NCBI GenBank assembly: GCA_030295235.1
Contig: AP026152.1
Coordinates: 62,001-126,000 of the forward strand
Reading direction: 5' to 3'
From: Fistulifera solaris
Lineage: Eukaryota > Bacillariophyta > Bacillariophyceae > Naviculales > Stauroneidaceae
Length of the DNA: 64,000 nucleotides
Every line of letters starts with the position of its first letter. The stretch's first letter is position 1. The notes under the pieces are model-generated. The model was not told where the DNA came from, made no database searches, and saw only the letters and a program-made list of their open reading frames with translations. Positions 28,908 to 61,875 of this stretch are shown here, piece after piece. The translations under genes were made by a program, and so were the position numbers.

Positions 28908-29492
28908 ATGGCATCGGATAGTAAAAGAAACGTCATCCATTTGGATATTGGAGGAACGTTGTATAAGGTATCGCGCCAGACCCTTCAACAGCACAGAGCT
29001 TCTGTGCTCGCGCGCCTCATTTCGGATACCGGTCAAGGAGAGAATGCGGATGAACCCATTTTCATTGATCGCAACGGTCGTTTGTTTGAGTATGTTCTTG
29101 ATTACTTGAGAACGGAGCAGGTGTATTTACCTTTCTCTGTGAGCCGCGACGCAATAAAGGAAGAATTCGTGTTCTATGGGATCGGTGCGGATATGAGCAA
29201 AGTACATCGAACAGCTGATACTGCAGACTTCGAAATGTTCATTGAAAAAACTGACGCAATTCGAATTCAAAGATTCGTTCAACAAACAGCGACATTTGTT
29301 GAACGCGAGTTCTCAAAATATCCGACGATACGCAGCGTATCGATACCCCAGGCAGACTACGTGCAGCTTTCTGAACATGAAGACTTGCTTCGTGAGCAGC
29401 TACTCAAAAGAGGGCTGAGGCTTGTCGATCGTGATTGGAGGTTGGGCCATGCCTTACCTTATATCGTAGTCGAGAAAGTTTGCAGTTATTGA
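28908..29492 (+). CDS. BTB/T1 (KCTD-type) protein, array gene 1
   Basis: 194 aa, first of the array. The BTB/T1 domain (residues ~6-98) starts HLDIGGTLYKVSRQTL and contains PIFIDRNGRLFEYVLDYLR and FYGIGADMSKV. This is the potassium-channel tetramerisation fold used by KCTD proteins for homo-oligomers and, in many, for binding cullin-3; no channel helices follow. Residues ~108-150 form a helix and the tail has PQADYVQLSEHEDLLREQLL then KRGLRLV, the array's soluble YVQL/RGL tail. ATG 28908 is used because the open frame upstream starts without an ATG and is unlike its paralogues. The ATARLIS segment is diverged (RASVLARLISDTGQGEN for the usual EGSMLASLISKQWKEGN). Confidence 0.88.
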   Translation: MASDSKRNVIHLDIGGTLYKVSRQTLQQHRASVLARLISDTGQGENADEPIFIDRNGRLFEYVLDYLRTEQVYLPFSVSRDAIKEEFVFYGIGADMSKVHRTADTADFEMFIEKTDAIRIQRFVQQTATFVEREFSKYPTIRSVSIPQADYVQLSEHEDLLREQLLKRGLRLVDRDWRLGHALPYIVVEKVCSY

Positions 29493-30400
29493 TGTAATCA
29501 AGGGACAAACATTAGCGACGAAAGGCTAGGTGTGTCGATCCTGAGCATCATGCCGTTCACAGGTACACGCAATTCATATTAGTAGGTCTCGCATTCAAGT
29601 AGTTTTATGCAAATATCGCCCAGCAACTCATTTTCTCTTATTTGTTCGATGTAAACACTTGCTGTCTATGCCCAGACACCAGTCATCCGAGCTCAATATT
29701 TGACAATGATAGGCAAAGCAAGACTTGTTACGAAAAAATGAAACACGGACTGTCTCGTGCCTCATCGCATCGCCTCGCGCGAGCATATTATTTATTCATT
29801 CGTTTGCTTTTGTGCTTCGCCAGATATTCTTACATATAGGCCTTCCCTATATTTTTATACGAAGTATCTCATTCTTCTTTTACAGAAGTAACATGTAGAA
29901 CGCAAGCCAAATAAATTGTCGATGATTTACTATAGCAGCGATTCCGTCTTTTCTGCTACAGCCCGAACAAGTGCCGCGCTCGGACTACCAGACAAATGCT
30001 CCTACAAACAAACTACGGCTAAACCCCCCTCTCAAAGTGGCTCACCTTAAAATATACAAACGCGGCATGGCTATATCTGGCAAGAAAATCGTACCCTTTC
30101 GTATGTAATACCGCAACGTGCATGGGAACTACTATGTCTTAGAACACAAAACGATAGTTTTCGCACGTCGTCGTTTTGTTGCTAAGGGCGTAGAACACTA
30201 CGGCGCCTTGCACGGAGAGCCCCTTTTTCGCCATCGGTAATTCTCTCACCGGATATTGATATCGAGCATTGAAAAAGTGTGCTCCTTGGTGTTTGTCATG
30301 AAACAATAATCGCAGCGACGCAAGACGACGACCAACGATGCGAGATGCGAGAGCGAGCGAAACGCGAAACGCGAGAGACGCGCAATGAAAAGGATCGAGA
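29493..30400. other. Intergenic region, nothing recognised
   Basis: About 900 bp without a protein-like frame. Near 30350-30390 there is a GCGAAACGCGA-rich low-complexity stretch. Confidence 0.5.
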
Positions 30401-30560
30401 TGACGTCAAGCGGCGCTTCGATCTTTGAAAAGTATGCAATAAAATGTAGTCAAATTCAGAAAGACTTCGCTTCTTCACGTCACTTTGTGCAACACTTTCT
30501 CAATTTTGACGTTTTGAGAAGAGACGCCACGTCAGATAAAGACACCGACCACGTGAACAA
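30401..30560 (+). promoter_or_regulatory. BTB-array upstream element, copy 1
   Basis: Starts with TGACGTCAAGCGG (30401-30413) and contains CACTTTGTG, CACTTTCTCA, TTTTGACGTTTTGAGAAG and GACGCCACGT in the shared order. It is the most diverged copy and lacks the downstream GGACACCATGAG. It ends about 160 bp before gene 2. Confidence 0.65.
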
Positions 30561-30721
30561 CGGAAACGTGCTCGGAAGCAAAACACGACACACACGAAGG
30601 AAACACGAATGAACAAGATACAAGATCTCGCAAGAAGCCAATGGATGCACTTGCCATCGACCTGCATCATAGTCCTTGTCGTTGTCAGTGACTTCTTCTT
30701 CTGATCATCTGGATCACGACA

Positions 30722-31420
30722 ATGGACAACAAAATCGTGCGTTTGAACGTCGGAGGCACGCGTTACGATGTCTCGCGCGATACACTGGCGCGCTGCGAAG
30801 GATCCATGCTGGCGAGCTTGATTTCGAAGCAATGGAAAGAAGGCAACTTGAATGAACCCATCTTCATTGATCGCAACGGACGTTTGTTTGAGTATATTCT
30901 GGACTATTTACGAACCAATGAGGTTCATTTGCCGCTTTCCGTCAACCGCACTGCGGTGGAAAAGGAGTTTGATTATTACGCCATTCCGGTCGATTGGACA
31001 CAAGTTCACTTACCGTCTTTGGATGAGTGGATGGAAGAAGTGGAATTGCGGCAAATGCAGCAATTTGTGACATTTGTGCGAGAAGAATTGTCGAAACTGC
31101 CCTACTGGGAAAAGAAAGTCAAAATACCCCCATCGGTGTATGTGCAGCTTTGTGGGCATGACCAATTATTGAGCCAGCTACTGAGCGATCGAGGAATGCA
31201 GTTGATTTCACGCGAATGGGAGGATGGTTCGCCCTGTATTCAGGTGAAAAAGACGGAGGACTGGAATGTCAAAAGGGGCGATAAGGTATTTCGCAGAGGA
31301 ACGAACGAAATCAAGCACAATTTTTTTAACATTATTCGTATGTGCATTGATCTGCAAGCTATTTTCGAGTGTACATCCGTGCCAGCATTTAGCTCACAAC
31401 TAGTTTCTTCGGTTTTGTAA
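30722..31420 (+). CDS. BTB/T1 (KCTD-type) protein, array gene 2
   Basis: 232 aa. BTB at residues ~4-95 (IVRLNVGGTRYDVSRDTL, PIFIDRNGRLFEYILDYLR), ending YYAIPVDWTQV instead of the usual YGIDADMSKV. A helix and the YVQL tail follow (PPSVYVQLCGHDQLLSQLL, then SDRGMQL). After QVKKTEDWNVK about 45 extra residues follow that no paralogue has, so the stop may be displaced by a nearby T7 run at about 31322. Upstream element copy 1 precedes it. Confidence 0.88.
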   Translation: MDNKIVRLNVGGTRYDVSRDTLARCEGSMLASLISKQWKEGNLNEPIFIDRNGRLFEYILDYLRTNEVHLPLSVNRTAVEKEFDYYAIPVDWTQVHLPSLDEWMEEVELRQMQQFVTFVREELSKLPYWEKKVKIPPSVYVQLCGHDQLLSQLLSDRGMQLISREWEDGSPCIQVKKTEDWNVKRGDKVFRRGTNEIKHNFFNIIRMCIDLQAIFECTSVPAFSSQLVSSVL

Positions 31421-31891
31421 GAAAGGAGTAGAGATTATGTTTCATAACTGAAATTCAGTCACGCCAAAAGGTCGCATACAGTATGGCCTATAGTCATGTT
31501 ACAAAGCGGGCCAGTCGAAAAGCATTTTTGATGCAGTTTCATCGAACATGCGTAAAGCGATCAAGCAATGAATATCATTTCGAGTCGATATAGTAATGAG
31601 TAAACTATATAAATCTTTGAGTTATTATTATTATCAATCATCATTGCGTTAGCGTTCCTGCGTTTCGTTTCTCGTGAAGGAAATCCGGTCTTGTCGAGAT
31701 TCCCCAATACTACATTTTGATTCTATAGTAACGTACATCTTCACGTACGACGGACAAGCGTTTCGCATCGCCATCAACAACGCAACAAAAAACAAAAAGA
31801 CGAAACGAAAAAATGCAACAACAGAAAAAAATCGTTGAGCGTCTCCATGAATCATCATCTTTTTCTTATTATCTATTCACACCGTTCGAAA
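31421..31891. other. Intergenic region, nothing recognised
   Basis: Between gene 2 and the U32 gene, with ATT microsatellite-like sequence at 31622-31635 and no supportable gene. Confidence 0.45.
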
Positions 31892-34860
31892 ATGCCGATA
31901 GCAATAGAGATAAAGCGATTCTCCGTGCTATCTTGCGTAGCTTGGTTCCTAATACTCGTCCTTCCGCCACAATTCACTTCCTCCTTATCAACGCCCAAAG
32001 TAATAACAACTAATAAAAACGCGTCATTAAATCTTCCGCCATTCATCGGAATGAACGTCGCAAGAATCCCGCTTTGTGGCGTCTCGAACATGTCGACGAC
32101 AAAGAGACTACAACTGTTGTGCAACCACGCAACAACACACGCCCACCTCTAATCATGGCCCCGCCGGGGCTGGCCCCAATTGAAGGCGGCCGTCGCGAAT
32201 GGTGCCGATGCCGTGTACGTGGGATTGTCGGCCTTTTCGGCCCGCGCCCGGGCGACCAATTTTGATGCCCTTCAATTACAAGAAGCCGTGAAATATTGTC
32301 ATCAACACGACGTGCATTTGTATGTCGCCTTGAATACGTTGGTGTTTCAACACGAATTCATCGAATTGGTGGACTGGATCCAGGTGTGTGAACAAGTGCA
32401 AGTTGATGCTGTCATAGTACAAGACATTGGGTTAATGAAATTGATCCAAGCTGTAGCGCCCTCGTTGAAATTGCATGCTTCGACGCAACAAACCGTCTCG
32501 GATGCGAATGGAGTCGCCTTTGCGGCGCAACAGGGCGCGACCCGTGTTGTTTTGGGACGCGAACTCAGTCTTACGGAAATTCAACAAATTGCCCAACAAA
32601 CTACGACCACAACCGAACTCGAAGTCTTTGTGCACGGGGCACTGTGTGTCAGTTATTCGGGACAATGTTTCAGTAGTGAATTTCAAGGAGGGCGGAGTGC
32701 GAATCGGGGACAATGTGCCCAAGCCTGTCGTTTGCCGTACGGATTGGTCGTTGATGGGGAATGGCACGATCTGGTGGAATCGTATCTATTGAGTCCGCAA
32801 GATTTGTGTGGTCTCCAACATATTCCACAATTGTTGCATTCCGTGTCTTGTCTCAAAATTGAAGGACGATTGAAGGATGCGGAGTATGTTGCAGCAACGA
32901 CACGAGCGTATCGACAAGCCGTCGATCTGGCGTGGCACGAAAGTATGAAAAAAAGACGATTCGTATCGAGCACCACGACAATTGCAACATGCCGACACCA
33001 GTGTGGATCGGACAACATTGGTGCAATTGTTTTCACGAGGTCAGGATGGGCAACACGATGGATTGACATCCGGCTTTTTTCAAGGTTCTCGACATCAAGA
33101 ATTGGTGATTGGGAAATCACCACGACATCGGGGTGTGTATATTGGTCAAGTCGTACAGTGCAATCCGAAAACGGGGGTCATTCAAGTGAACGTCGACAAT
33201 GAGGCCGGCATACAATTGAAACGAGGAGATGGCATCGTTATTGATCGTGGATTGGCCGAATTGGAAGAACTGGGTGGTCCTATCTACGAAATCGGCAAGG
33301 ATTCTCACGATGATACGATGAGTTACATTCAATTCAGTCATAAGACCAAAGTGATGACCGAATTGGTGCCGCCGGGTGCCTTAATTTGGCGGACGCATGA
33401 TGCGGTACTGGAACAACAAATGCAAAAGTTGGTGCAGGCAGAGCCGCCGAAACGAACTGTATTGTTGCAAGTAGAAGCTCGCAAGGATCAACCGTTGCGT
33501 ATCACCGTTACTTTGCCTTCACTAGATGGAGATGAATTTATCACCGCGGTCGCCGAGTCTGACACGGTCTTGGTACCAGCGTCTCGAACAGCATTGTCGA
33601 AAGAAGCAATACAAAAAGCCGTTGGGACTTTGGGAAACACTCCATTTGCTTTGGCGGACCACGGCGGAATGAACATTGAATTAGAAGACGACCTATGGTG
33701 TCCTGTTTCGGCAATCAAAGAAACGAGACGCAAAGCAATCCAAAATTTACAAGATGAATTGGATGCGAAGAGTGGTGCGACCAAAGCAAAGTTAACTTCT
33801 AGGCAACAAGAAAAGTCCCCGTCGTCGTCCAAACAGATCATCTCGCAGCTCATGGATCAATTGAAGCCTTTGGCAACAACATCGATAGAACCACAGCAAA
33901 CCATGGCTTTATCCGTTTTGTGTCGCAGTCTGGAACAGGTGGACTGTCTGTGTGATATGATTGAGGATGACGACTCAGCGATTGTTGATGAAATCATTAT
34001 TGATTTTTTAGAAGTACAGGGGATGCAAGACGCGATGGAACGCATCCAACAAGTGACAAACAGACCAATCCGCATTGTGCTGGCTTCGCCCCGTATTCTA
34101 AAACCAGCCGAAGATGGCATCTGGAAGACTTTGTTATCGTTGCGGCCAGATGCATTGCTGGTCCGCTCGCCGGGTCTCCTTTTTCGGATGCAACAACTCC
34201 AAAAAGCTGGAACTGTCGAAATCAACGGCGAATTGATTCCGATTCCTCCCCCTGTTTGGTGATTTTTCATTGAATGTGGCGAATCCCTTGACAGCGTTCG
34301 AGTTTTTGCATCAAGGACTGGAACGTATTACTCCTACGTACGACTTAAATGCACGGGCCATCTCAGCTCTGGCGCGTACCATGGCTTCGCCTCAGCAATT
34401 GGAAGTGGTCGTACACGCCAAACTGCCAACGTTTCACACGGAGCACTGTGTATTTGCTCGATTCTTATCCAAGGGCAACTCGTATCAAGATTGCGGGCAC
34501 GTTTGCACTAGACACAGTGTTCATTTGAGGGATGGCAATACGGGGGCGGATCAGCTGGTGCTGGCGGACATGGGGTGTCGAAATACTGTCTTTTCAGCCG
34601 AAGCACAGTCGGGAGTCCATTCGCTGAGAGAGTGGCAGCAAGCTGGAGTCGGACGGGTCCGTATTGAGCTTGTCGATGAATGCCTCGAAGATATCCGAAA
34701 GATGGTTGCGGGTTACGAACAAGTACTAAATGGTACCACCAAGCCAAGCGTCACTTGGGAAATGCTACAGAATGTGCGTGATACCAACGGTCGCATTTCT
34801 GGTGTATCATTGGGCTCGTTGCGAAATCAAGTTGAACGACGGGCGGGTGAACTGAAATAA
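31892..34860 (+). CDS. U32 peptidase-family protein (RlhA/YhbU-like)
   Basis: About 990 aa after corrections. Bacterial relatives RlhA and TrhP hydroxylate rRNA or tRNA pyrimidines; plant members are chloroplast proteins. Seen here: LKAAVANGADAVYVGLSAFS at the N-terminus of the TIM-barrel-like domain, VFVHGALCVSYSGQCF, then GGRSANRGQCAQACRLPYG with the conserved cysteines, CLKIEGRLKDAEYV, then the DUF3656-type part (LVQLFSRG, SPRHRGVYIGQV). The C-terminal barrel half has HCVFARFLS and a Cys pair. Frame corrections: near 32165-32177 (two bases missing restores MAPAGGW), A7 at 32948-32954 to A6, TTT at 34255-34257 to TT, and one near 32040. Residues 1-35 (IKRFSVLSCVAWFLILVLP) look like a signal peptide, fitting plastid or secretory import. 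It interrupts the BTB array. Confidence 0.82.
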
Positions 34861-36608: not shown

Positions 36609-37196
36609 ATGTCAGCTGAAGAGACCAAGCGCAAAATCATCCAATTGGACGTGGGCGGAACGCTGTACAAAGCATCGCGTCAGACGCTCGAGCGTTTCGA
36701 TGGGTCTATGCTGGCGAACTTAATTTCCAACCACTGGAAAGAAGGCAACACGAAAGAACCCATTTTCATTGACAGAAACGGTCGTCTGTTTGAATACGTC
36801 CTGGATTACTTACGCACAGGCGAAGTTTACTTACCGTTCTCGGTGAGCAAGGCCGCTCTTCAAAAAGAGTTTGAATTCTACGGAATTGATGTTGATGTGA
36901 GACGCTTGCATGAAACACACGGCATGCAGTTCTTCGAACAACTCATCGAGAATGCCGTCACGATGCACAACGAACATCTTGTGATTCAAACATCGGCTTT
37001 CGTAGAGAAGGAGGTCTTTAAAGACACATCTCGAACGATTTATTTTCGTGTCGAAGTCCCTCCAGAGCAATATGTACAGCTTTGTTCGAATGAGGATAGA
37101 TTGCGAGCCCGATTGTTTGAAAGAGGGCTGGAATATGATCGCAGCGAATGGAATTTTGGGTTGCCTGCCATCTTTGTCACAAAAGCGAACGCCTAG
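36609..37196 (+). CDS. BTB/T1 (KCTD-type) protein, array gene 4
   Basis: 195 aa from ATG 36609 (MSAEETKRKIIQLDVGGTLYK); an in-frame ATG at 36492 would add 39 residues with no paralogue support. BTB at residues ~7-98 with LANLISNHWKEGNTKEPIF. The tail has PPEQYVQLCSNEDRLRARLF then ERGLEYDRSEWNFG, closest to genes 1 and 2. The gene downstream is on the opposite strand and ends 53 bp away. Confidence 0.9.
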   Translation: MSAEETKRKIIQLDVGGTLYKASRQTLERFDGSMLANLISNHWKEGNTKEPIFIDRNGRLFEYVLDYLRTGEVYLPFSVSKAALQKEFEFYGIDVDVRRLHETHGMQFFEQLIENAVTMHNEHLVIQTSAFVEKEVFKDTSRTIYFRVEVPPEQYVQLCSNEDRLRARLFERGLEYDRSEWNFGLPAIFVTKANA

Positions 37197-37249: not shown

Positions 37250-37792
37250 CTAGCTGCCTTGTACAAGTACTAAGATATGCACATGATCAATCCCCGGAAG
37301 TGATTGAAGACGAGGAGGATTGACCCAATGCAACATGTCTTGAACAAGTAGCTGTGATTGTAACTCCTTCTTTGCTTTCTGTATATCTTCCACCGTACAA
37401 TCAGCGCCTAACTTCCACAATATCCAATGTTGAACGGACTCCTCGAAACAGTAAGGAAAATCGTTGCGCACAAGAGCCGTTCGCGGTAATGTTGTGTTGT
37501 CTCCGTCGTTTCGTACGACGCGCTTGAGACCTTCCTGTAATTCAGAGGGCAAATTGAACTTTGTACACAGCACATAATCCAGCATCGACGCCCATTCTCT
37601 CAGTATAGCCCGCTTACTCAGCTCGTATTGACGCTGTTGTGAAGCACTTCGCGTCAGACGATCGAAATCGTGTTCGACGAGCACAATTTGTTGAATCTCT
37701 TGCCATTGTAAGGGCGTTTCGCAATAGCCGTATTTCAGCGTTGGTAACACGATCTCATCCGGGTTCACGTCACGAGACGTCAAACTCATCAT
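37250..37792 (-). CDS. DUF3605 domain protein
   Basis: 180 aa, intact. The DUF3605 signature is clear: SKRAILREWASMLDYVLCTKF, then RNDFPYCFEESVQHWILWKLG, then DMLHWVNPPRLQSLPGIDHVHILV. Fungal and protist members are cytosolic and of unknown function; one is induced by N-acetylglucosamine. It is the only minus-strand gene inside the array and is bounded by genes 4 and 5. Confidence 0.85.
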   Translation of the reverse strand: MMSLTSRDVNPDEIVLPTLKYGYCETPLQWQEIQQIVLVEHDFDRLTRSASQQRQYELSKRAILREWASMLDYVLCTKFNLPSELQEGLKRVVRNDGDNTTLPRTALVRNDFPYCFEESVQHWILWKLGADCTVEDIQKAKKELQSQLLVQDMLHWVNPPRLQSLPGIDHVHILVLVQGS

Positions 37793-38570: not shown

Positions 38571-39039
38571 ATGAACAGCGACCCCAACATCAAGATGATT
38601 CGCTTGAATGTCGGAGGAACCCGCTACGATCTGTCGTTGGATACGCTGAGCCGAAGCGGAAACTCCCTTTGAAAACTATGATTCTCAGCAATGTGAATGC
38701 AGGAAAACCCTATGACCCCGTTTTTATTGACCGCAGCGGCCGTTTGTTCGAGTACGTCCTCGAATACATGCGGACAGGAAAAATTTACTTGCGACCCACC
38801 GAAAATAGCGCCGCTGTCAAGAACGAACTCGAGTTTTATGGATTCTTCGCCCCCAGCTTTCTATTTGTCGAGAATAAAAGGATTATGCCGAAGCAATCAC
38901 AGTGACCCACATTCTTCTTCGCTGTTTGACAGCCGGCGTGATGGTCAACTCAGTCCTTGTCGTCCTGGCTGCATTGGACGTTTGCGTTGGACTTGGAAAG
39001 TTGCGCGTGAGTCTCGACCTCTTCTCCATTCGAGCTTAA
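38571..39039 (+). CDS. BTB/T1 protein with hydrophobic tail, array gene 5
   Basis: 156 aa after two one-base corrections (T3 at 38668-38670 to T4; A4 at 38876-38879 to A5). BTB starts MIRLNVGGTRYDLSLDTLSR and has PVFIDRSGRLFEYVLEYMRTGKIYL; it is shorter and more diverged (LSNVNAGKPYD in place of WKEGNSDEP). The tail has no RGL part; it ends with one hydrophobic helix (VMVNSVLVVLAALDVCVGLG), probably membrane-inserted. Closest to gene 7. Confidence 0.72.
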
Positions 39040-39252: not shown

Positions 39253-39362
39253 ACTAGAGGTGTCACAAAAGAGGATGGATCAAGAACACGTTGCATTGCT
39301 TCAATTGCGCATACATTTACCGAGCAAGTAATTTGTCTATTCGGATTCATTTAGCTCTTGAA

Positions 39363-39986
39363 ATGAGGGAAGACACCATGGATAGCAGCGTCCCGTTGGA
39401 TGTTGGAGGGACTTTTTATAGAGTAGCTCGAGATACCATCGAGCATCATGGAGACTCCATGTTGTCGAGGATAGTATCCACTCACTCAAACGAGAATGGC
39501 GCGGAGAACGCTCCAATCATCTTCATTGAAGGCAACGGTCGTTTGTTCGAATATGTTCTCGATTACATGCGCACTGGCAAAGTATATTTGCCGCCTTCTG
39601 TCACCAGAGCCGCCATGAAAAAGGAGTTTGACTCCTATGGAATCCCCTGCCGATATGAACAAAGTGGTTGAGAAACATGGCAATGAATACGCTCGTGATC
39701 TTGCGGCGAGGATTGAAGCGAAGCAAAAGAGCTGGACCTGTTGAGGGCAGAAGTATTTGCATTCCAGTTGTCGCATTTGCTCGAGTTCCAGGCCTTGGCA
39801 TCGCGCCACACAGGTCCACCGTTCTGCTTGTACGTAATGGATAATGATTACCCACCTTGTTGCAAAAATAACCAAGACTTGTTACGTCAGCAGCTGGCGA
39901 GCATCGGGTTGGACCTAGTGTCAAGCATGCAATCCGGCCAAAATCAGCATTGCATCACCGTCGAGTATGCAGATATGCAATCGTAA
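39363..39986 (+). CDS. BTB/T1 (KCTD-type) protein, array gene 6
   Basis: 207 aa after two corrections (C4 at 39644-39647 to C3; AA at 39721-39722 to AAA). BTB is diverged at the start (VPLDVGGTFYRVARDTIEHH) and has IIFIEGNGRLFEYVLDYMR; the Arg of the usual DRNG is lost. A helix with AKELDLLRAEVFAF follows, then QDLLRQQLASIGLDLV, where RGL is changed to IGL. The frame is open over its whole length once corrected. Confidence 0.75.
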
Positions 39987-41315: not shown

Positions 41316-41831
41316 ATGATGAGAAGTGATCCCAACAACAAGATCATTCGCTTGAACGTCGGAGGAACCCGCTATGATTTGTCGAAGGCTACGCTAGAGA
41401 AGCTCGATAAACGTTGCCGAGGCTCGTTTTTGAAGGCTTTAATCATGTACGGAATGAGTGAAGAGAAACCGGACGAACCCATCTTCATCGACCGCAACGG
41501 CCGCTTGTTCAAGTCCGTTCTCGATTACATGCGGACGGGCATGATCTACTTGTCGCCTTCCGTCAACATAACCGCATTGAAAGACGAGTTCATCTATTAC
41601 GGGATCTCGGCGAGCTGGGATAAATCGGTTGTCAAGAATGTTGTGGAGCACTTGGATGAATCGGATCCAACAACCCAGCTTAAGTATTACAAGCCAATCA
41701 AGGAAATTAAGACGACAATACATTGGAATTACATCGGAATTCTCAAGGCAGTAGGTTGGTGTTACGTTGCCTGGGGACTTACTTTAGGGGTTGGAATCAT
41801 GCGTCAGAGCAGCAAGCCGCGTGCTTATTAA
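41316..41831 (+). CDS. BTB/T1 protein with hydrophobic tail, array gene 7
   Basis: 171 aa, intact. BTB at residues ~10-103 (IIRLNVGGTRYDLSKATLEK, PIFIDRNGRLFKSVLDYMRT), with a four-residue insertion KLDKRCRGSFLK before the loop. The tail is short and ends with a hydrophobic helix at about residues 143-166 (IGILKAVGWCYVAWGLTLGV), probably a membrane anchor with the BTB on the cytosolic side. It is the intact relative of gene 5. Confidence 0.88.
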   Translation: MMRSDPNNKIIRLNVGGTRYDLSKATLEKLDKRCRGSFLKALIMYGMSEEKPDEPIFIDRNGRLFKSVLDYMRTGMIYLSPSVNITALKDEFIYYGISASWDKSVVKNVVEHLDESDPTTQLKYYKPIKEIKTTIHWNYIGILKAVGWCYVAWGLTLGVGIMRQSSKPRAY

Positions 41832-42872: not shown

Positions 42873-43387
42873 ATGGCGATCAATGATACCCGAAAAATAG
42901 TTCGATTGAATGTTGGAGGAACGCAATACGATGTATCACGCGATACACTCGCACGATGCGAAGGTTCCATGTTGGCCAGTTTGGTATCGAAACAGTGGAA
43001 CGAAGGCAATACGAACAAACCCATCTTTATTGACCGCAATGGATTGTTGTTTCAATATGTTTTGGATTATTTGCGCAACAATCAATTGCATTTGCCGTCC
43101 TTTGTGAGTCGCGCCGCGATGGTCGATGAATATTTGATTTTTACGGAATCGAAGGGGATGTCCGCGTGCGCTCCGCCATCAAAGAATACGATCCGCATGC
43201 ACACATTCACGAGCTCCGGAACCAGGTGCGCTGTTGGCGGATCGCTCTGGCGGTTCTATCACTCTATCTGATAGAATGCCATCTAGTCTGGTTGAACGTC
43301 GTGGAGCGTTCTACTACCAGCGTGCTTTTGAATTTCATGATGATGTGTTTCGTGATCTATGTCATTAAGAATGGGTGGTTGCGTTGA
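42873..43387 (+). CDS. BTB/T1 protein with two hydrophobic tail helices, array gene 8
   Basis: 171 aa if T5 at 43138-43142 is T6, which restores the conserved IFYGIEGDV at the end of the BTB. BTB residues ~8-98 closely match gene 2 (YDVSRDTLARCEGSMLASLV), with NKPIFIDRNGLLFQYVLDYL. The tail has two hydrophobic helices, about residues 115-138 (RIALAVLSLYLIECHLVWL) and 150-167 (VLLNFMMMCFVIYVIKNG). This makes a likely hairpin membrane anchor that no other member has. Confidence 0.78.
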
Positions 43388-48070: not shown

Positions 48071-48754
48071 ATGAACACGCTCCAGCTACCGCCCATTTCG
48101 ACGAACACTCCGAAAGCATTCCGCAGCGATCTGATTCGCCTCAATGTCGGAGGAATTCGCTACGAAGTTTCTCGAAGCACAATGACACGCTACGAAGGGT
48201 TAGCCAGTCTGGCGGAGAGTTGGAACGATCAAAAATACAACAACGAGTTGTTTCTGTTCCGCAACGGGCAGTTGTTTGCGTACATCTTGGATTATGTGCG
48301 GTCGGGTAACGTTCATTTGCCTTCTTTCATCTCGATCAAGGTATTTAAGGAGGAATTGGAGTACTATAAAATTCCGGTGGACATGAGTAAGATTGTGGAG
48401 GAGAAAGATTACTTTACCGTGGACCGCCTGAACCGAGAAATCGAAGAACACCAGGCTGCAATGGAAGCTTTAGAGAAGCAACGAGTTGCTATTGTGGAGT
48501 CGTACCGTCTGGCATATCAGTTTGCGGAATTATGTGCAACAAACAGCAACAAACAGCCCAGTATTGTGGCTCCTTCCTTTCCGGTGAGAGGCAACATCAA
48601 TAAGAAAATGCTTCATGAATGCTTGCTTTCCCGAGGACTCGAGGCCTACGGATATTTGCAAGGACCAAAGGGTGCCACTATTTCGTTAGGAACTACTCCA
48701 GAAATTGTCAACGGAGCTCATGATCAACACAAATTGCCTTTTCTGATTTTTTGA
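48071..48754 (+). CDS. BTB/T1 protein with coiled-coil and RGL tail, array gene 12
   Basis: 227 aa, intact. BTB at residues ~22-110: LIRLNVGGIRYEVSRSTMTR, with a shortened loop (LASLAESWNDQKYNNELFLF) and RNGQLFAYILDYVRSG; the PIFIDRNG phrase is replaced by ELFLFRNG. A coiled coil follows at ~120-165 (YFTVDRLNREIEEHQAAMEA, VAIVESYRLAYQFAE), then INKKMLHECLLSRGLEAYGY. It is the first of the coiled-coil subfamily (genes 12, 13, 14, 18, 19 and both relics). Confidence 0.88.
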   Translation: MNTLQLPPISTNTPKAFRSDLIRLNVGGIRYEVSRSTMTRYEGLASLAESWNDQKYNNELFLFRNGQLFAYILDYVRSGNVHLPSFISIKVFKEELEYYKIPVDMSKIVEEKDYFTVDRLNREIEEHQAAMEALEKQRVAIVESYRLAYQFAELCATNSNKQPSIVAPSFPVRGNINKKMLHECLLSRGLEAYGYLQGPKGATISLGTTPEIVNGAHDQHKLPFLIF

Positions 48755-48860: not shown

Positions 48861-49006
48861 ATTCGGCGAATCCGATGCAGCTTTTTGTGCAGCAAGCTGT
48901 CGACACGGAGTTGCTCCGCATGTGCTTGTACTCTCGAAAGCTACAAGTTGTCTACTATAACGTGAAACCAGATGGAATGGTTGTTGCGCATGTGATTCCT
49001 GTTTGA
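48861..49006 (+). pseudogene. Orphan C-terminal fragment of an array gene (relic B)
   Basis: A short open stretch ending at TGA 49004-49006 encodes QLFVQQAVDTELLRMCLYSR, KLQVVYYNVK and MVVAHVIPV, matching the last ~45 residues of gene 14 (ISVQQNVDREMLRECLMSR, VIAHLVSLG). The RGL motif has become RKL. Nothing upstream encodes a BTB or coiled coil, and it lies only 110 bp after gene 12. Confidence 0.78.
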
Positions 49007-49598: not shown

Positions 49599-50431
49599 AT
49601 GGGGGATACTCGCATCAAGAAAACACGATTCTCGTTAGACGATAACCTCAATGAAGGCTTCGAAAACCTCACCGTCGAAGACGCTAAGGAAGAAACAAAT
49701 GTATATTCTTTCACATTCGGAAAGAAAACAGAAGAAAACAACGTCCCGCCTCCCACCAAGACTTTTCATCGCGACTTAGTTTGCTTGAATGTTGGGGGAC
49801 TCCGCTATGAAGTCTCTCGGACGACGATGACGCAATACGAAGGTTCCGTGCTAGACAGCTTGGCGAAGACGTGGAACGAAGAAAAGTTCAACAGCGAAAT
49901 CTTCGTGTTCCGCGACGGGAGTTTGTTTGCGTATGTTTTGGATTATCTGCGATCGGGTAAGGTATATTTGCCGTATTCGATTGCGCGGGCCGCTCTGCAA
50001 GAAGAATTCGATCACTTTCAGATTCCTGCGGACATGGAAAAGGTTTATGTGGAAAAGACTACTTCACCATTGATCGACTGACGAAAGAGATCAAAGAGCA
50101 CAAGGACGCGATTGAAGAGAAAGAGAGGACCGTCGCCGCCATCATTGAATCCTATCGTCTAGCACACAACCTTACGGCCTCTGTCATGAAGCATGGGTTT
50201 GATTGGTCCAAGGTGGTGACACCTAGCTTTACTGTTACGCCGGGCATCGACAAGAAACTGCTGCGCGATTGTTTGCTAGCGCAAGGAGTCGAAGTGTATG
50301 GTTACCGGATGGAAAATTTTGAGGCGCGCATTTCATTAGGACCCATTCAAGACGAAACTGGAGGAACTCCCTGCAATGGCGCTTACCGCAAGACGGCTAC
50401 TGGATCGCCATTTCGCTTCTTTGATCCATGA
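49599..50431 (+). CDS. BTB/T1 protein with coiled-coil and RGL-like tail, array gene 13
   Basis: 277 aa, the longest member, when A4 at 50053-50056 is read as A5. An N-terminal extension of ~60 residues (RIKKTRFSLDDNLNEGFENL) precedes the BTB (LVCLNVGGLRYEVSRTTMTQ, EIFVFRDGSLFAYVLDYLRS). The corrected frame continues DYFTIDRLTKEIKEHKDAIE into the coiled coil, then IDKKLLRDCLLAQGVEVYGY, with RGL changed to QGV. Relic A is its closest relative. Confidence 0.82.
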
Positions 50432-51064: not shown

Positions 51065-51787
51065 ATGACATTGACCGCAAATGAAACGTTTCCTACGGAA
51101 CAAGCTCCTGAGATTCCTTCGACTACAGCAAGTGAGAGCCAGTCGAATGATACGCCTGATGTCACGCCGACAACTCCCCGCAGTCCGCGAGAAATCGTCC
51201 GCTTGAACGTGGGAGGCACGCGATACGAAGCATCCCGCAACACTCTGTTGCGGTTTGAGGATTCGATGCTGGCCAGTCTCATTTCCGGCAAATGGAAAGA
51301 AGGAGAAGGCGATGAAGAAATCTTTATCGATCGCGATGGACGTCGTTTCGGGTATATTTTGGAGTATTTGCGCTCCGACCGTGTGCATTTACCGCATTTG
51401 TCGGCCCGGTCTGCTTTGATGGAAGAGTTTGAGTACTTTGGGATTGATGCCGATGAGAGCAAGATTCTGGTCCAGCACGACTTTATGTGTCTCGATCAAC
51501 TCAAGAAAGAAATCATGCTTCATCAAGCCGCTATTGCTGAGAAGGAACGGGAAGTGGCGGCCATTCTGGAATCCTATCGTATGGCCAAGGAATTTTCCGA
51601 GTACGTCAAATCATGGGGATTGAATGTTATGATGCAGATATCGGTGCAGCAGAATGTCGACCGAGAGATGCTTCGTGAATGCTTAATGTCGCGGGGACTT
51701 AAGGTGGACAACTACAAAGTGAAAGAAGATGGAACCGTCATTGCCCATCTTGTTTCGCTGGGGATGTCTGGTCACGCCCGAAAATAA
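51065..51787 (+). CDS. BTB/T1 protein with coiled-coil and RGL tail, array gene 14
   Basis: 240 aa from ATG 51065. A Thr/Ser/Pro-rich N-terminus of ~40 residues precedes the BTB (EIVRLNVGGTRYEASRNTLL, EEIFIDRDGRRFGYILEYLR, YFGIDADESKI). The DRDGRRFG phrase is shared only with gene 18. The coiled coil has HQAAIAEKEREVAAILESYR, then VDREMLRECLMSRGLKVDNY. The frame is intact and serves as reference for relic B. Confidence 0.92.
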   Translation: MTLTANETFPTEQAPEIPSTTASESQSNDTPDVTPTTPRSPREIVRLNVGGTRYEASRNTLLRFEDSMLASLISGKWKEGEGDEEIFIDRDGRRFGYILEYLRSDRVHLPHLSARSALMEEFEYFGIDADESKILVQHDFMCLDQLKKEIMLHQAAIAEKEREVAAILESYRMAKEFSEYVKSWGLNVMMQISVQQNVDREMLRECLMSRGLKVDNYKVKEDGTVIAHLVSLGMSGHARK

Positions 51788-52095: not shown

Positions 52096-52743
52096 ATGAC
52101 GAAAAGCGCTAGTACAGGTACAAGCAAAATCGTTCGATTGAACGTCGGTGGCACACGACATGATGTTTCTCGCAGTACACTCGAACGATGTGAGGGCTCC
52201 ATGCTGGCAACTTTGATTTCGGATCGTTGGAAAGAAAGCGCCTCCGACAAGAATGAAACTGTTCTCATCGATAGCAGGGGTCATTCCGTTGTAAGTGACA
52301 CGGAGCCTATTTTCATCGATCGCAACGGATTGTTGTTTCAGTACGTGCTCGATTATCTACGTGAGGGTGAAGTTTACTTGCCATCGACTGTAAGCCGTGC
52401 TGCTGTGTTGAAGGAGTTCGATTTCTATGGAATCGATGCGGATACAAGCAAATTGGTTGAGAAGTACGGTGTCGACTACTATCATTCGATAAGAGAGAAA
52501 GCCGAAGCACTCGACAACGAACTGCGCGCCATTCGAATCGCTTCCGAGGCCGAGAGCAAGTTTTGGAAGTCGGCCTCCAGGCATTCTTCTGTCTCTGTAA
52601 CATTGTCTGATGATGACAGGTCCCATATGAACGAAGATTTGGAAACATTGTTACGCGCAAGACTATTTGAAAGGGGGCTAAAACTTGATTCGCAAGTCAC
52701 TTATTTCGTCAATGTCAGCAGAGCAATTTCAAGAGGAAAGTGA
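52096..52743 (+). CDS. BTB/T1 protein with duplicated loop, array gene 15
   Basis: 215 aa from ATG 52096 (MTKSASTGTSKIVRLNVGG). Inside the BTB, between WKES and PIFIDRNGLLFQYVLDYLR, there is an insertion of about 15-17 residues (DKNETVLIDSRGHSVVSDTE) that itself resembles the following loop (VLIDSRG against IFIDRNG), so a small internal duplication. The linker is SIREKAEALDNELRAIRIAS, EAESKFWKSA, and the tail LETLLRARLFERGLKLDS. Gene 21 shares this linker. Confidence 0.9.
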   Translation: MTKSASTGTSKIVRLNVGGTRHDVSRSTLERCEGSMLATLISDRWKESASDKNETVLIDSRGHSVVSDTEPIFIDRNGLLFQYVLDYLREGEVYLPSTVSRAAVLKEFDFYGIDADTSKLVEKYGVDYYHSIREKAEALDNELRAIRIASEAESKFWKSASRHSSVSVTLSDDDRSHMNEDLETLLRARLFERGLKLDSQVTYFVNVSRAISRGK

Positions 52744-53115: not shown

Positions 53116-53274
53116 TTGCGCGGAAAGAAAATTTCAATTCAACGCCCAATCAAATTTGAAGGCTCGACGGATTCGCCACTCGATAACTCTTTCCACGGTC
53201 TTGCGCTCCTGAAAAGCATCTTTTCTCATAAAATCCAGTCCGTTGATTCCATTCTGCTGGCATACAAACGAAAA

Positions 53275-53880
53275 ATAACGAGTAGCAATAACGAAGGCAA
53301 GATCGTTCGACTGAATGTCGGAGGTACACGATACGACGTCTCGCGCGATACGATGGAGCGCTGCGAAGGGTCCATGCTGGCAAGCTTGATATCGAAAGAT
53401 TGGAAAGAACGTAACAGCCCGGAACCTATCTTGATTGACTGCAGCGGGAGATTGTTTGAGTATGTTCTCGAGTATCTGAGAACAAATGAGGTCTACTTGC
53501 CCACTCTTGTGGACCGAACGGCTTTGGAAAAAGAGTTTTCGTTTTATGGCATCGAAGTGGATATGAAGAACGTCCATGAAAGAAACGGTCGAAAATATAT
53601 TGAAGAAATAGCCCCGAGAATCGCATCCGCTCAAAAAGACCTGGACTTGTTAACCGTTGAACGCCTCGCCATTGAAACAGCTGCTTTCGTCGAACTCAAA
53701 TACGTGCAATCAAGACCATACCAAATCAGTTTGCCTGATGAAGTTGATGATTCTGCGCTGCTTCAGAAGTACCCCGAATTTTTCCGTGAACGCTTACTTG
53801 ACAGAGGATTGTTGTTTCAGTCAATCGGAGTGGACAGGAATAAGTCTTGGTATATTAAAGTTCAAAGCGTAGATACTTGA
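53275..53880 (+). CDS. BTB/T1 (KCTD-type) protein without visible ATG, array gene 16
   Basis: About 201 aa counted from ATA 53275, where the paralogues have ATG followed by ACG (here ATAACGAGTAGC). The frame stays open upstream to 53116 with no ATG. BTB is normal (KIVRLNVGGTRYDVSRDTME, SMLASLISKDWKERN, FYGIEVDMKNV), but LIDCSGRLFEYVLEYL replaces FIDRNGRLF. Tail: PEFFRERLLDRGLLFQS. CCAATCA lies at about 53145. Either the start codon is lost, the protein starts at a non-ATG codon, or a spliced upstream exon supplies it. Confidence 0.75.
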   Translation: MTSSNNEGKIVRLNVGGTRYDVSRDTMERCEGSMLASLISKDWKERNSPEPILIDCSGRLFEYVLEYLRTNEVYLPTLVDRTALEKEFSFYGIEVDMKNVHERNGRKYIEEIAPRIASAQKDLDLLTVERLAIETAAFVELKYVQSRPYQISLPDEVDDSALLQKYPEFFRERLLDRGLLFQSIGVDRNKSWYIKVQSVDT

Positions 53881-55171: not shown

Positions 55172-55795
55172 ATGACGACGGAAGAAACGAAACCCAAAGT
55201 TGTTCAGCTGGACGTTGGAGGCACGCTTTATAAAGTATCACGGGACACGCTCGAGCGTTGCGAGGGATCGATGCTGGCCAGTTTGATCTCGGATCAATGG
55301 AAGGAAGGAAATACTGACGAACCGATCTTCATTGATCGCAACGGTCGTTTGTTTGAGCATGTACTGGACTATTTGCGCGCCAGCAAAGTGTATTTGCCTT
55401 CGACAGTCAACATCGAGGCGGTGAAAGAGGAGTTTGAGTTTTATGGGATTGACGCCGATATGAGTGAAGTGCACGAAAAGTACGGTCACAAGTATCTACA
55501 CGAGCTTAATGAAAGGATTCGTGTCCAAGAAGAGAGCTTGTACGCATTAAAGGCGGAAGCCCATGCCATTCAAGCGTCCATGATGGTCGAGCATGAATTC
55601 TTCAAAGAGCATGAGACTCCCTACATTCCGGTCCCCGAGGAGTATCGACCAAAGCGTCACACGCGGTGCATTGATTTGCCGGAAGAGTATAGACCCTTTG
55701 ATAAAGAAACGCTGCGCACCTGCTTGCAACAGAGAGGTTTCAAAATGAATCGAGCCGATCGAGACTACGTTTCCGTCGAGGACATGGAAAGCTAG
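55172..55795 (+). CDS. BTB/T1 (KCTD-type) protein, array gene 17
   Basis: 207 aa from ATG 55172 (MTTEETKPKVVQLDVGGTLY). BTB is near consensus (SMLASLISDQWKEGNTDEPI, FIDRNGRLFEHVLDYLR, YGIDADMSEV). Linker: HELNERIRVQEESLYALKAE, AHAIQASMMVEHEFFKE. Two PEEYRP phrases occur in the tail, then KETLRTCLQQRGFKMNRAD. This start region (TEETK) matches gene 4. The frame is intact. Confidence 0.92.
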   Translation: MTTEETKPKVVQLDVGGTLYKVSRDTLERCEGSMLASLISDQWKEGNTDEPIFIDRNGRLFEHVLDYLRASKVYLPSTVNIEAVKEEFEFYGIDADMSEVHEKYGHKYLHELNERIRVQEESLYALKAEAHAIQASMMVEHEFFKEHETPYIPVPEEYRPKRHTRCIDLPEEYRPFDKETLRTCLQQRGFKMNRADRDYVSVEDMES

Positions 55796-56228: not shown

Positions 56229-56945
56229 ATGGCGCGACGAAAAAACAAATCTATTGCGAAAAGGGCGGCGAAGAAGAACGGTAATAGCCCTCCTCAGACT
56301 TCTCAGAGGGAAGGCGGTAGTCCTCAAGGTGATGAACAAAAACCAACCGTTCGATTGAATGTAGGAGGTATGCGCTATGAAGTAGCTCGAGATACCTTGA
56401 TGTTTTACGAAGATTCGATGCTCGCGAGTCTGGTATCCGGCAGATGGAAGGAAGGCAATGGTGAAGATGAAATCTTCATCGATCGCGACGGACGTCGATT
56501 TGGATTTCTTCTGAATTATCTACGTTCGGATCGAGTTTATCTGTCAGAGTCTTCAGATCAAGCGGCTCTCGAGGATGAATTCGAGTACTTCGGAATCGAT
56601 GCAGATATGAGCAAAGGTTTCATTGAAGAACGACTTTGTGTCTGTGAAAGAGCTCACTCAAGAGATTGAAGAGCACGAAGAATTCATCAAGGAGAAAAAG
56701 AAGAAAATTGCTGCAATAAAGGAATCTTATCGCTTGGCTAGTGACTTTACAAGTCGCACCGACAGCCAAGGTTTATATGTGCGACATAATGTCGGCGTTG
56801 CTATTGACAAAGAAATGCTCCGAGAATGCTTCTTTCTCGAGGATTGTTCGTAGTTTCGTACAATGATGAACAGGCTAAGCAGACAGTCGACATCTGTTTT
56901 ATTTCTTTGAAACACAAATACGCCAAGAAAGCTGGATCTAACTGA
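56229..56945 (+). CDS. BTB/T1 protein with coiled-coil and RGL tail, array gene 18
   Basis: 238 aa after two corrections (GG at 56616-56617 to G; TT at 56830-56831 to TTT); corrected, it reads SKVSLKNDFVSVKELTQEIE and CFLSRGLFVVSYNDEQAKQ, matching gene 19. A basic N-terminus (ARRKNKSIAKRAAKKNG), possibly nuclear-targeting, precedes the BTB (TVRLNVGGMRYEVARDTLMF, EIFIDRDGRRFGFLLNYLRS). The coiled coil is very Lys-rich (EKKKKIAAIKESYRLA). Confidence 0.8.
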
Positions 56946-58055: not shown

Positions 58056-58703
58056 ATGCCACGACGAAAGAAACAAGCGTCTTTGGACGGAAAGACTGAT
58101 AACATAAACACTGGTATCGTCCGTTTGAACGTGGGTGGCACTCGTTATGAGGCAGCACGCTTAATGCGATTTGAGGGATCCATGCTCTCTAATCTCATTT
58201 CGGGCAAATGGAAAGAAGGAAATGGACAAAACGAGATCTTTCTGGATCGCGATGGCAAGTTGTTTGCTTACATCTTGGCGTATTTGCGTTGCAATCGAGT
58301 CTATGTGCCCGACCTCTCCGTTCAATCAGCGCTCCGAGATGAGTTTCAGTACTTTGGTATTGATGCCGACATGAGTAAAGTGTCTGTCACGGACGACTTT
58401 GTGACGATCAACGAGCTCAGCAAAGAGATTAAAAAGTCGGAAAAGGCCAACCTTCAGAAAAAGAAGAAGATTGCTGCCATCAAAGAATCGTATCGTTTGG
58501 TCGGTGAGTTTTCGGTCCTGGCGGAGACGTTAGGTCTGTACTTGCGACATGATATTGACGATAATGTGGACAAGAAGCTACTCCGCGCGTGTCTGCTGTC
58601 GCGGGGACTTCACGTCGTTAGCTACAACACTGATTCGATGCCACATACCGTCGATCTCTGTGTCATTGGATTGAAGGACAAGTTCGATAAAAGTGGCGAG
58701 TAG
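58056..58703 (+). CDS. BTB/T1 protein with coiled-coil and RGL tail, array gene 19
   Basis: 215 aa, intact. BTB at residues ~20-112 (IVRLNVGGTRYEAARLMRFE, EIFLDRDGKLFAYILAYLR). Three residues (the usual DTL) are missing between YEAAR and LMRFEGSML, an in-frame deletion in the first helix. Lys-rich coiled coil EKANLQKKKKIAAIKESYRL, then VDKKLLRACLLSRGLHVVSY. It starts PRRKKQ, basic like gene 18. Confidence 0.9.
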   Translation: MPRRKKQASLDGKTDNINTGIVRLNVGGTRYEAARLMRFEGSMLSNLISGKWKEGNGQNEIFLDRDGKLFAYILAYLRCNRVYVPDLSVQSALRDEFQYFGIDADMSKVSVTDDFVTINELSKEIKKSEKANLQKKKKIAAIKESYRLVGEFSVLAETLGLYLRHDIDDNVDKKLLRACLLSRGLHVVSYNTDSMPHTVDLCVIGLKDKFDKSGE

Positions 58704-59577: not shown

Positions 59578-60195
59578 ATGACAATGACGGAAACTGAAAA
59601 CTATCGTATTTCGGTGGATGTCGGAGGAACCATGTATGAAATATCTCGGGACACGCTGGCAAGTTGTGAAGGTTCTAAACTGACGAGCATGATCATGGAG
59701 CAATGGAAAGACACAAACCTCGACGGTTATATTTTGATTGACCGCGACGGTAAGATGTTTGAGTATGTGCTTGATTACTTGCAAACGCATACGGTCTTTC
59801 TTCCGCGTGAGGTGAGCCGGCTTGCTTTAGAGAGAGAGTTCGAGTACTATGGAATTGAAGCGGACATGACCAATGTGCATGACTTGTATGGATTTGAGCA
59901 TCTTCGTATGATCAAAGAGGAGATTGGGGTACAAGAAGCTCACCTTGACGTGTTGAAGAGCGAAGCCATGGCCATTCAGCTATCCATGTTCACCGAACTC
60001 GAGTATCTGAGAAATATACCGAGCAAAACCGAATGTGTGAACTTTGACATCCCCAAAGAGTACAGCAGCTACAACAAGGCGCTTTTCAAAGAGTGCTTGG
60101 CTGCCAGAGGATTGGTGTATGTTCGAGGAACCGTCAACGGCAAGTCTCTAAACGTCACCAAACAACTCGATGACGATACTGATACAAAAGAGTAG
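59578..60195 (+). CDS. BTB/T1 (KCTD-type) protein, array gene 20
   Basis: 205 aa from ATG 59578 (MTMTETENYRISVDVGGTMY); an in-frame ATG at 59431 would add 49 residues without paralogue support. BTB is diverged: SKLTSMIMEQWKDTNLDGYI, LIDRDGKMFEYVLDYLQTHT, YYGIEADMTNV. Linker: QEAHLDVLKSEAMAIQLSMF, TELEYLRN. Tail: KALFKECLAARGLVYVRG. Intact. Confidence 0.9.
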   Translation: MTMTETENYRISVDVGGTMYEISRDTLASCEGSKLTSMIMEQWKDTNLDGYILIDRDGKMFEYVLDYLQTHTVFLPREVSRLALEREFEYYGIEADMTNVHDLYGFEHLRMIKEEIGVQEAHLDVLKSEAMAIQLSMFTELEYLRNIPSKTECVNFDIPKEYSSYNKALFKECLAARGLVYVRGTVNGKSLNVTKQLDDDTDTKE

Positions 60196-60501: not shown

Positions 60502-60559
60502 TACTATAGCACCCGAGTGTAGATTACTTTTTCACGACTGCATTTCAGTCACGAATAAT
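60502..60559 (+). repeat. CTATAG hairpin repeat
   Basis: CTATAGCACCCGAGTGTAG, then CACGACTGCATTTCAGTCACGAA. It lies about 310 bp after the gene 20 stop. Confidence 0.72.
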
Positions 60560-60857
60560 AGTTCTGGGTTTTGGGAGCCTGACTTCACCTAGACTAACCT
60601 CTGTTTGTTCTGCTATTTTGAAACACTGAATCCGTCATTATTACACTTCAATGCTTTCAGAAGTATGAGCGGTGAGCCTTCTGAAGTTTTATGCGTCCTT
60701 TGACCTCTCGGCAATCCTTCCAGATCGAGTATAGCCCCTCGCCGTTACCTGGTAAAAATAAAATGTAAGGATAAAGCGTATAGTTTCAATTTAATCATTC
60801 AGATTAGTTATAGTTATAAAGCCTGACAAGTTTCCGAATCTTATAAATGTTTTGATT

Positions 60858-60905
60858 TTACTACGGAGCATAGATTTTACCATGACTGGATTCAGTCATG
60901 AATGA
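60858..60905 (+). repeat. CTATAG hairpin repeat, 5' part decayed
   Basis: CTACGGAGCATAG, then CCATGACTGGATTCAGTCATGAAT; the 3' hairpin is now a perfect 8-bp stem (CATGACTG and CAGTCATG with loop GATT). Confidence 0.65.
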
Positions 60906-61280
60906 GCATCAATAAAATAACATAATAAAACATAAAAACACCATATCATCTCCGAACCATTTTGACCATTCATTCTTTCTTATTATGCATTCAAATTTTG
61001 CATGGTTTACAGCTTTTTTAAGTGTAGATGATAGTGCGATTTCTGGGGGAAACGTTTTTGGGCGTTGGAATGCACCTTTCCTCCATGATGCAAAACACCA
61101 CGCTATACTATGTACGCATGTTTGGTTGATGACAATCCACGGATGGTTTTCGACACGAGGAGGAGTGAGTCAGTCGTCCACACAATTGCTGATGAATGAA
61201 TATTCAGTCTGAAAGAAGGGTTTCACATTGTCTCGCACAATTTATTTTTTCTAAGACTGCCGGAAGGGATTTACGGCAGA

Positions 61281-61875
61281 ATGACGACTGAAGCAAAAAT
61301 CGATGGCAAGATCGTGCGTTTGAACGTCGGAGGAACACGATACGACGTATCTCGCGATACTCTTGAGCGCTTTCAAGACTCCATGCTGGCAAGCTTGGTG
61401 TCAAAGCATTGGAAGGAAGGCAACTCGAATGAACCCATCCATCGATCGCAATGGTCGCTTGTTCGAGTATGTTCTGGATTACTTGCGCACTAGCGAAATC
61501 CATTTGCCCTCTTTTGTGAGCCCGGCTGCTTTGGAAAAGGAATTGGAGTTCTACGGCCTTTATGATGTTGATATGAGTAAAGTGATCGGAAAGAACAGGG
61601 TCGAGTACGGCATTTCGGTTCGAGAGAAAGCGGAGACGTTGGCCCTGGAAGTACGGGCGATTCGATTGGCAGCTCTGGCGGAATCTGAGTTCTGGCAACA
61701 CCGATTTCCGCCAGAATCGCTTTCGGTATCGATATGCTCTGAAGATTATAAAGAGCTTGTTCGGCGTGAGGACTTACTACACGAACGCTTACTTGACAAG
61801 GGATTGCAACTTGTTTCGATGAACAAAGAGAAAAATTGTTTGTATAATTTTGTATTCAAGGTGGCAAATGCTTAA
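61281..61875 (+). CDS. BTB/T1 (KCTD-type) protein with two-base deletion, array gene 21
   Basis: 198 aa if two T residues are restored at 61439/61440, where paralogues read CCCATCTTCATCGATCGC and this copy reads CCCATCCATCGATCGC. BTB otherwise near consensus (KIVRLNVGGTRYDVSRDTLE, SMLASLVSKHWKEGN). Insertion LYD in FYGLYDVDMSKV. Linker SVREKAETLALEVRAIRLAA and ESEFW as in gene 15; tail REDLLHERLLDKGLQLVS. This is the one array frame break that is not a one-base homopolymer change. Last gene of the array. Confidence 0.78.

Follow-up and report, generated by a model that had tools for sequence, protein, structure and literature searches.

A long tandem row of KCTD-type T1/BTB genes with a shared C-terminal domain in the diatom Fistulifera solaris

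Here we describe a tandem array of KCTD-type T1/BTB genes in the diatom Fistulifera solaris. The window that we analyzed is a 64,000-nucleotide stretch of contig C32 (C32:62001-126000) from a genome of 51.7 Mb in 61 contigs. Its interval 28908-61875 contains 20 T1/BTB domains and two tail-only relics, every one on the + strand, located with a profile of the T1 made from 30 array matches and a tail profile read alongside it. The genes appear to encode small, soluble proteins in which a single long helix connects the KCTD-type T1/BTB domain to a small C-terminal domain (CTD) with a beta-alpha-beta-beta fold. The array is real, old, and partly decayed, and by the evidence of selection its paired members are functional. 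The likeliest of the readings weighed here, plausible but short of probable, is that the array may be a set of oligomeric CUL3 degradation adaptors that have the T1 in common and differ in the CTD.

Extent of the array and its homoeologous counterpart

The two profiles bear out the twenty T1/BTB genes and two relics, all on one strand, of a preliminary description of this interval. That description gave the span as 33 kb, but the row is longer. The C32 row continues past the window with 16 further T1 domains, up to 152.0 kb, for a total of 36 (41 stretches of at least 20 bits, five domains being split in two by frameshifts), and a homoeologous array on C33 holds 10 whole T1 domains at 83.9-125.8 kb plus two fragments. 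C32 (848 kb) and C33 (855 kb) are collinear, with approximately 75-89% nucleotide identity in long blocks around and in the array, the level expected for the subgenomes of allodiploid F. solaris as described in PMC5935921 and PMC13276009. One separate T1 pair lies on the opposite strand at C32:419.8 kb and C33:422.4 kb.

A Pfam scan of the whole genome gave at least 53 matches to PF02214 (BTB_2), with 48 on C32/C33, two of which stand apart from the arrays, and 5 on C9/C10. The window copies matched with E-values of 1.3e-18 to 1.1e-4. Over their main stretch, five F. solaris records (P0041, P0046, P0055, P0062, P0069) match the arrays at 98-100%; together with the match to FisN_14Hu037 (see below), they identify the genome as F. 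solaris or a strain very near it. Four public records, P0033, P0055, P0044, and P0062, map to C32:92.7, 110.1, 120.1, and 144.1 kb, respectively, and because each lists the same longest contig of 514,140 bases, the row is very likely also in one piece in an independent assembly.

Predicted protein architecture

Using AlphaFold, we modeled two array proteins as single chains, 55172-55792 (mean predicted local distance difference test score, pLDDT, 90.2; predicted TM score, pTM, 0.68; 72 sequences) and 51065-51784 (mean pLDDT 85.3, pTM 0.59, 46 sequences). Both models contain the T1 domain, then a single helix of 43 or 46 residues, then a strand-helix-strand-strand (beta-alpha-beta-beta) domain. 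Block means in the CTD were 86-98, with the last block of the 51065-51784 model at 72, and the relative placement of the domains is less certain. The CTD bears an L..CL..RGL motif. By sequence profile and fold comparison, the T1 matches both KCTD and Kv T1 domains, and the fold comparisons support the KCTD-type assignment made earlier. The fold lists were headed by T1 matches, with the predicted beta-alpha-beta-beta fold of the CTD compared only as part of the whole chain. Viral structure matches were BTB proteins of many giant viruses and of two poxviruses.

Family searches were consistent with this architecture. PF02214 was the sole family above the Pfam cut-off in six array proteins from the window, save 39291-39668, which also matched BTB_3 over the same stretch, and in the array-type proteins P0047 and P0021 only BTB models passed. 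None of these scanned proteins (the six from the window, P0047, and P0021) had a Pfam match to the MATH domain. The Pfam H1-domain model (KCTD8/12/16) matched neither P0047 and P0021 nor seven further relatives, in a scan that did match a copepod KCTD12. No trans-membrane stretch was found in 18 of 18 translated open reading frames of the window, where the highest 19-residue Kyte-Doolittle mean was 1.35, in agreement with the earlier statement that channel helices are lacking. Three F. solaris array proteins (P0041, P0055, P0069) are publicly named as Shal- or Shaw-type potassium channels despite having no channel part.

Across 44 members, identity is 60% in the T1, 24% in the helix, and 26% in the CTD. 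The T1 is the common part and the CTD distinguishes the copies, with each copy's CTD tending to be kept. The tails had been described as divergent, which is correct for their identity, but they share the long helix and the beta-alpha-beta-beta domain. The idea that the tails are random sequence was rejected on the basis of the AlphaFold fold and of the tail profile-profile alignment (see below). Two single-protein tail searches of the genome gave 20 and 6 matches, all of them in the two arrays; these searches also missed the profile-detected tail of the C32:419.8/C33:422.4 kb pair, and a CTD without a T1 may therefore exist elsewhere.

Age and selection

Synteny identified nine C32-C33 pairs of T1 copies. 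Synonymous difference (pS) in the T1 was 0.29-0.50 in these pairs, compared with a minimum of 0.515 and a median of 0.78 among 276 pairs of C32 paralogues. Because all nine pairs fall below every C32 paralogue pair, the copies are, judged from their sequences, older than the split of the two parental subgenomes. The same ranges (0.29-0.50 versus a paralogue minimum of 0.515) led us to reject a recent duplication burst. The array had been called lineage-specific, and as a young burst this fails on two counts: its copies predate the subgenome split, and there are relatives beyond Fistulifera whose tail is similar. Equal one-to-one orthologues, scattered across related genomes, had been named as a finding that would tell against a lineage-specific array; one-to-one partners do exist for nine of the ten whole C33 copies, but in the same array rather than scattered.

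The tenth whole C33 copy (C33:92801) corresponds to the tail-only relic at window position 45914 (C32:107914), with a synonymous divergence (dS) of 0.21 in the tail and a ratio of nonsynonymous to synonymous substitution (dN/dS) of 0.51. Pairing this copy with C32:110134 (pS 0.51) was rejected, as the two are paralogues with a tail dS of 1.39, versus 0.21 to the relic at 107914. Many C32 copies without a C33 partner form deep branches in the tree, a pattern that points to loss from C33 no less than to gain on C32. The tree (92 columns, 96 rows) has support below 80 at 37 of its 93 inner branches and was used for pairs and broad grouping only.

Both the T1 and the tail are under purifying selection in the syntenic pairs. 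Pooled dN/dS was 0.10 for the T1 (832 codons, nine pairs) and 0.15 for the tail (727 codons, the seven pairs in frame on both sides), with individual tails ranging from 0.013 to 0.43. Two tail pairs were set aside, 120119/100235, which has a C33 frameshift here that is absent from FisN_14Lh051, and 111779/94383, in which the C32 frame is broken. As a yardstick, 26 neighboring frames gave 0.04-0.36 in 18 cases and 0.59-7.9 in the other 8, all of which overlap another listed frame.

Relatives outside the array

With one array protein as query, 38 proteins were found among 93 candidates, and with 15 aligned members 94 were found among 2459 candidates, most of them close to Fistulifera. Lower in the ranking stand a few T1 proteins of different types, with a similar tail in three (P0080, P0081, P0084). 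When these three were aligned and used as the query, 210 proteins scored E <=1e-6 out of 3611 candidates; the relatives examined are the best 120 of 210, and 117 of these were new. Among the matches listed, the nine with an organism name all come from diatoms, three from Chaetoceros tenuissimus, two from Seminavis robusta, and one each from Epithemia, a Bacillariaceae genome, and organisms whose incomplete names read as Pseudo-nitzschia and Nitzschia. The tail was detected weakly in two of the nine, P0156 from Epithemia (9.5 bits) and P0158 from Seminavis (8.8 bits). The tail profile had no match in the three Chaetoceros proteins, and several other named diatom sequences are short.

Against the 117 new proteins among the matches listed, the tail profile reached 10 bits in 24 and 20 bits in 9. 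When the tails of 70 proteins of Fistulifera type were compared by hhalign with those of 102 others, the probability was 88.8 and the E-value 2.5e-6, versus 0.04-0.09 in five shuffled controls. A loose form of the tail motif was present in 55 of 70 Fistulifera-type proteins and 73 of 102 others (2.6 and 3.7 after shuffling), the latter share not being unbiased because the search that yielded the 102 started from three outliers picked for their similar tail. A related tail after the T1 also occurs in environmental proteins. We therefore see in the array the local expansion of a broader diatom family, mapped only in part across the diatoms.

Intact and broken copies

The preliminary description counted twenty proteins. 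There are indeed 20 T1 domains in the interval, but only 11 of the 20 loci (including 53116-53880) have the T1, helix, and CTD in a single open frame. The other nine comprise one with a cut CTD, two with no recognized CTD, and six with a frameshift or truncation within the T1 or directly after it. All loci, including the two tail-only relics, are listed here by window position.

28908-29492, +, complete T1-helix-CTD gene; C33 partner at 83.9 kb
30722-31420, +, complete T1-helix-CTD gene; matches FisN_14Hu037 of Fistulifera solaris with 99% identity over 186 residues
35240-35869, +, T1 gene, C-terminal domain cut
36609-37196, +, complete T1-helix-CTD gene
38598-38845, +, frameshifted T1 relic, tail not found
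39363-39980, +, T1 frame, tail in a different frame
41316-41831, +, T1 gene without a recognized C-terminal domain
42873-43271, +, T1 gene, truncated at the T1 end
43856-44386, +, T1 gene without a recognized C-terminal domain
44893-45555, +, complete T1-helix-CTD gene; C33 partner at 91.5 kb
45914-46315, +, tail-only relic; its C33 counterpart is the tail of the 92.8-kb copy
48071-48754, +, complete T1-helix-CTD gene; the public model runs beyond the stop in another frame
48881-48985, +, tail-only fragment
49599-50365, +, T1 frame, tail in a different frame; C33 partner at 94.4 kb intact
51065-51787, +, complete T1-helix-CTD gene; second AlphaFold model; C33 partner at 95.9 kb
52096-52743, +, complete T1-helix-CTD gene; 18-residue insertion in the T1, tail score weak (14 bits)
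53116-53880, +, open T1-helix-CTD frame, no ATG before the T1; an upstream exon or other start would be needed
55172-55795, +, complete T1-helix-CTD gene; first AlphaFold model; C33 partner at 98.4 kb
56229-56933, +, T1 frame, tail in two further frames
58056-58703, +, complete T1-helix-CTD gene; C33 partner at 100.2 kb
59578-60195, +, complete T1-helix-CTD gene; C33 partner at 101.7 kb
61281-61875, +, frameshift-split T1, tail in the second frame

Breakage is partly assembly-dependent, since public protein models bridge three of the lesions, at C33:100.6 kb (P0048), C32:131.1 kb (P0050), and C32:110.7 kb (P0055). Some lesions may therefore be assembly errors, although a bridging model may reflect a predicted intron rather than an intact frame. 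Three other breaks, at C32:127.1 (P0018), 147.0 (P0076), and 105.1 kb (P0075), are matched by the public models. A frameshift hotspot was considered, as several lesions fall in one short T1 stretch, but they differ from one another, and the scan is most sensitive to mid-domain breaks.

Neighboring genes and other BTB clusters

The row is interrupted by unrelated genes, namely a U32-peptidase gene at 32180-34860 (+) and a DUF3605 gene at 37250-37792 (-). A leucine-rich-repeat gene at window 62054-63238 (-) lies within the longer array, and one frame of the C33 array also reads as a leucine-rich-repeat protein. Between T1 copies there is a second tandem gene of unknown family, with about two copies at C32:133.9-138.0 kb and about three at C33:115.8-121.1 kb. 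Two T1 domains occur in succession at C32:127048-127764 and at C32:138471-139284, and likewise in the environmental protein P0005.

Retroelement-like frames are present on the - strand inside the C33 array, at C33:108724-109626 (L017) and C33:111122-111952 (L018). These appear copia-like on a reading of the frames, no family search having been made, and they lie in a stretch where C33 is without T1 copies that are present on C32. Elsewhere in the genome, the T1 genes at C9:1158-1164 kb and at C10:591 kb and 1141 kb belong to a different family, with a charged stretch before the T1 and a longer C-terminal part, and are clustered on C9. Genes of the other BTB type (PF00651) form small clusters, all on the + strand, with five matches at C28:128.7-139.4 kb and three at C29:683.9-687.5 kb.

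A possible CUL3-adaptor set and its alternatives

KCTD proteins are described as soluble proteins with T1 rings, in which the T1 commonly docks CUL3 and the C-terminal domain picks the substrate (PMC5664961, PMC10856315, PMC8699099), and KCTD5 is reported to mix into oligomers with other KCTDs (PMC10531988). For the array, our data show a predicted fold, a shared CTD, old copies, purifying selection, and the presence of CUL3, and we propose a similar mechanism as an inference. The T1 domains would form closed rings of four or five subunits, with their edges gripping the N-terminal helices of CUL3. The long helices would hold the CTDs, also arranged in a ring, for substrate binding, the CTD choosing the substrate, and copies could perhaps mix in hetero-oligomers. 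With a common T1 and a CTD particular to each copy, the row would then serve as a collection of adaptors for degradation.

A CUL3 gene is present on C13 (best match Cullin-3, 1.6e-136), with a PF00888 counterpart on C14. Other cullins were found on C21, where the gene is ambiguous between cullins, and on C24, where it is CUL4-like. The adaptor-binding residues of F. solaris CUL3 are unchanged at all eight positions named in the literature, and the array protein 51065-51787 keeps four of the eight KCTD7 contact residues, with two more similar. Several observations weigh against this model. KCTD16, which showed no Cul3 binding according to PMC5664961, also keeps four of the eight (R65, M80, D98, Y131), which makes the contact-residue comparison non-discriminating, and it is KCTD16 that has the nearest T1 by profile. 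In the array family, the position of KCTD7 D74 is Gly in 91% and that of H85 is Trp in 91%. The CUL3 face would also be kept for other BTB adaptors; the genome has 19 PF00651 matches. Finally, one tail pair has a dN/dS as high as 0.43.

In the first alternative, the proteins are CUL3-free oligomeric scaffolds. The T1 ring would bind a non-CUL3 partner, as KCTD16 does with a receptor peptide, and the CTD ring a second, tuning signaling or transcription. The similarity to KCTD16 and the lack of Cul3 binding by KCTD16 favor this, as do a KCTD16-GABAB peptide complex among the matches, the Trp at the H85 position, which makes for an unusual face, and the description of KCTD1 as an atypical member that is a transcriptional repressor (PMC7618933). 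However, sequence comparison places 51065-51787 closest to the CUL3 binder KCTD7, and the two best fold matches, KCTD17 and KCTD5, bind Cul3 as well. We also know of no diatom partner for such a scaffold, which counts against it, and we regard this alternative as doubtful.

Gene-family drift, with duplicates of little function coming and going and a row that is mostly decaying, seems unlikely. It would account for the number of complete window loci (11 of 20), the 36 T1 domains on C32 versus 10 whole ones on C33, and the dN/dS of 0.51 between the T1-less relic at 45914 and its C33 counterpart. The pooled dN/dS values of the syntenic pairs, 0.10 for the T1 and 0.15 for the tail, speak against it, falling within the 0.04-0.36 seen in 18 of the 26 neighboring frames.

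The CTDs could instead be variable faces for recognizing fast-changing foreign or mating-related proteins. The birth-and-death pattern between C32 and C33 would fit this, and BTB/POZ families that may or may not include this one are reported in Seminavis robusta to be active in sexual stages and to figure among the genes whose proteins change fast (PMC7335047). This is quite improbable, as the CTDs of syntenic homoeologues are under purifying rather than positive selection. Least likely are potassium-channel regulators, in which a soluble T1 would co-assemble with channel T1 domains: the public Shal/Shaw names of P0041, P0055, and P0069 and the presence of the Kv4.3 T1 among the best sequence matches point that way, but no channel was seen in the open frames at the off-array T1 matches (C9, C10, and C32:419.8/C33:422.4 kb), which were read by eye after an exon-wise search whose counts are lower bounds and which could miss a T1 channel.

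Significance and comparison with known systems

Large adaptor sets show what a lineage must selectively degrade or recognize. F. solaris is an oil-producing species with an allodiploid genome for which CRISPR editing is described (PMC13276009), making single copies or the whole row open to experiment. Our results also correct the three public protein names that refer to potassium channels.

The closest known proteins are the KCTD proteins (human KCTD5/17, KCTD7, KCTD16, and KCTD1/15). Like these, the array proteins begin with a KCTD-type T1 followed by what is predicted to be a small alpha-beta C-terminal domain, with no trans-membrane part in the array open reading frames examined. The KCTD C-terminal domain is defined as a single beta-sheet with helices after the T1 (PMC8699099). 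Unlike in KCTD proteins, the array CTD follows one long helix and bears the L..CL..RGL motif, and there are 36 array T1 domains in one row, compared with 25 human members as given in PMC10856315. BTB/POZ families named KCTD by KEGG are reported as contracted in Antarctic Nitzschia (PMC13149256). These genes of Nitzschia and other pennate diatoms possibly overlap with the family here, and in the excerpted text of that paper they are described without this CTD or an array. Kv-channel T1 domains (Kv4/Shal, Kv3/Shaw) share the T1 fold, which is the likely source of the public channel names, but the array proteins have no trans-membrane helices or pore after the T1.

In the open-licence papers searched, we found no description of this array or its CTD, nor of a large adaptor set in diatoms. 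What is surprising is how large and how old the row is, together with a CTD unmatched by Pfam models, rather than a new protein type. The MATH-BTB expansions of grasses and nematodes are similar only in how they would work, as an expanded family with a conserved BTB dock and a divergent partner domain (PMC6883508). They differ in that the array BTB is of the T1 type, the scanned proteins have no MATH domain, and the partner domain is under purifying selection between homoeologues. More speculatively, and on balance improbably, diatoms could own a large class of CUL3 adaptors that combine a T1 with an undescribed beta-alpha-beta-beta recognition domain, in a role like that of the F-box and MATH-BTB sets of plants and nematodes. 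Dozens would then stand in one Fistulifera row and mix combinatorially, their faces kept one by one since before the parental split.

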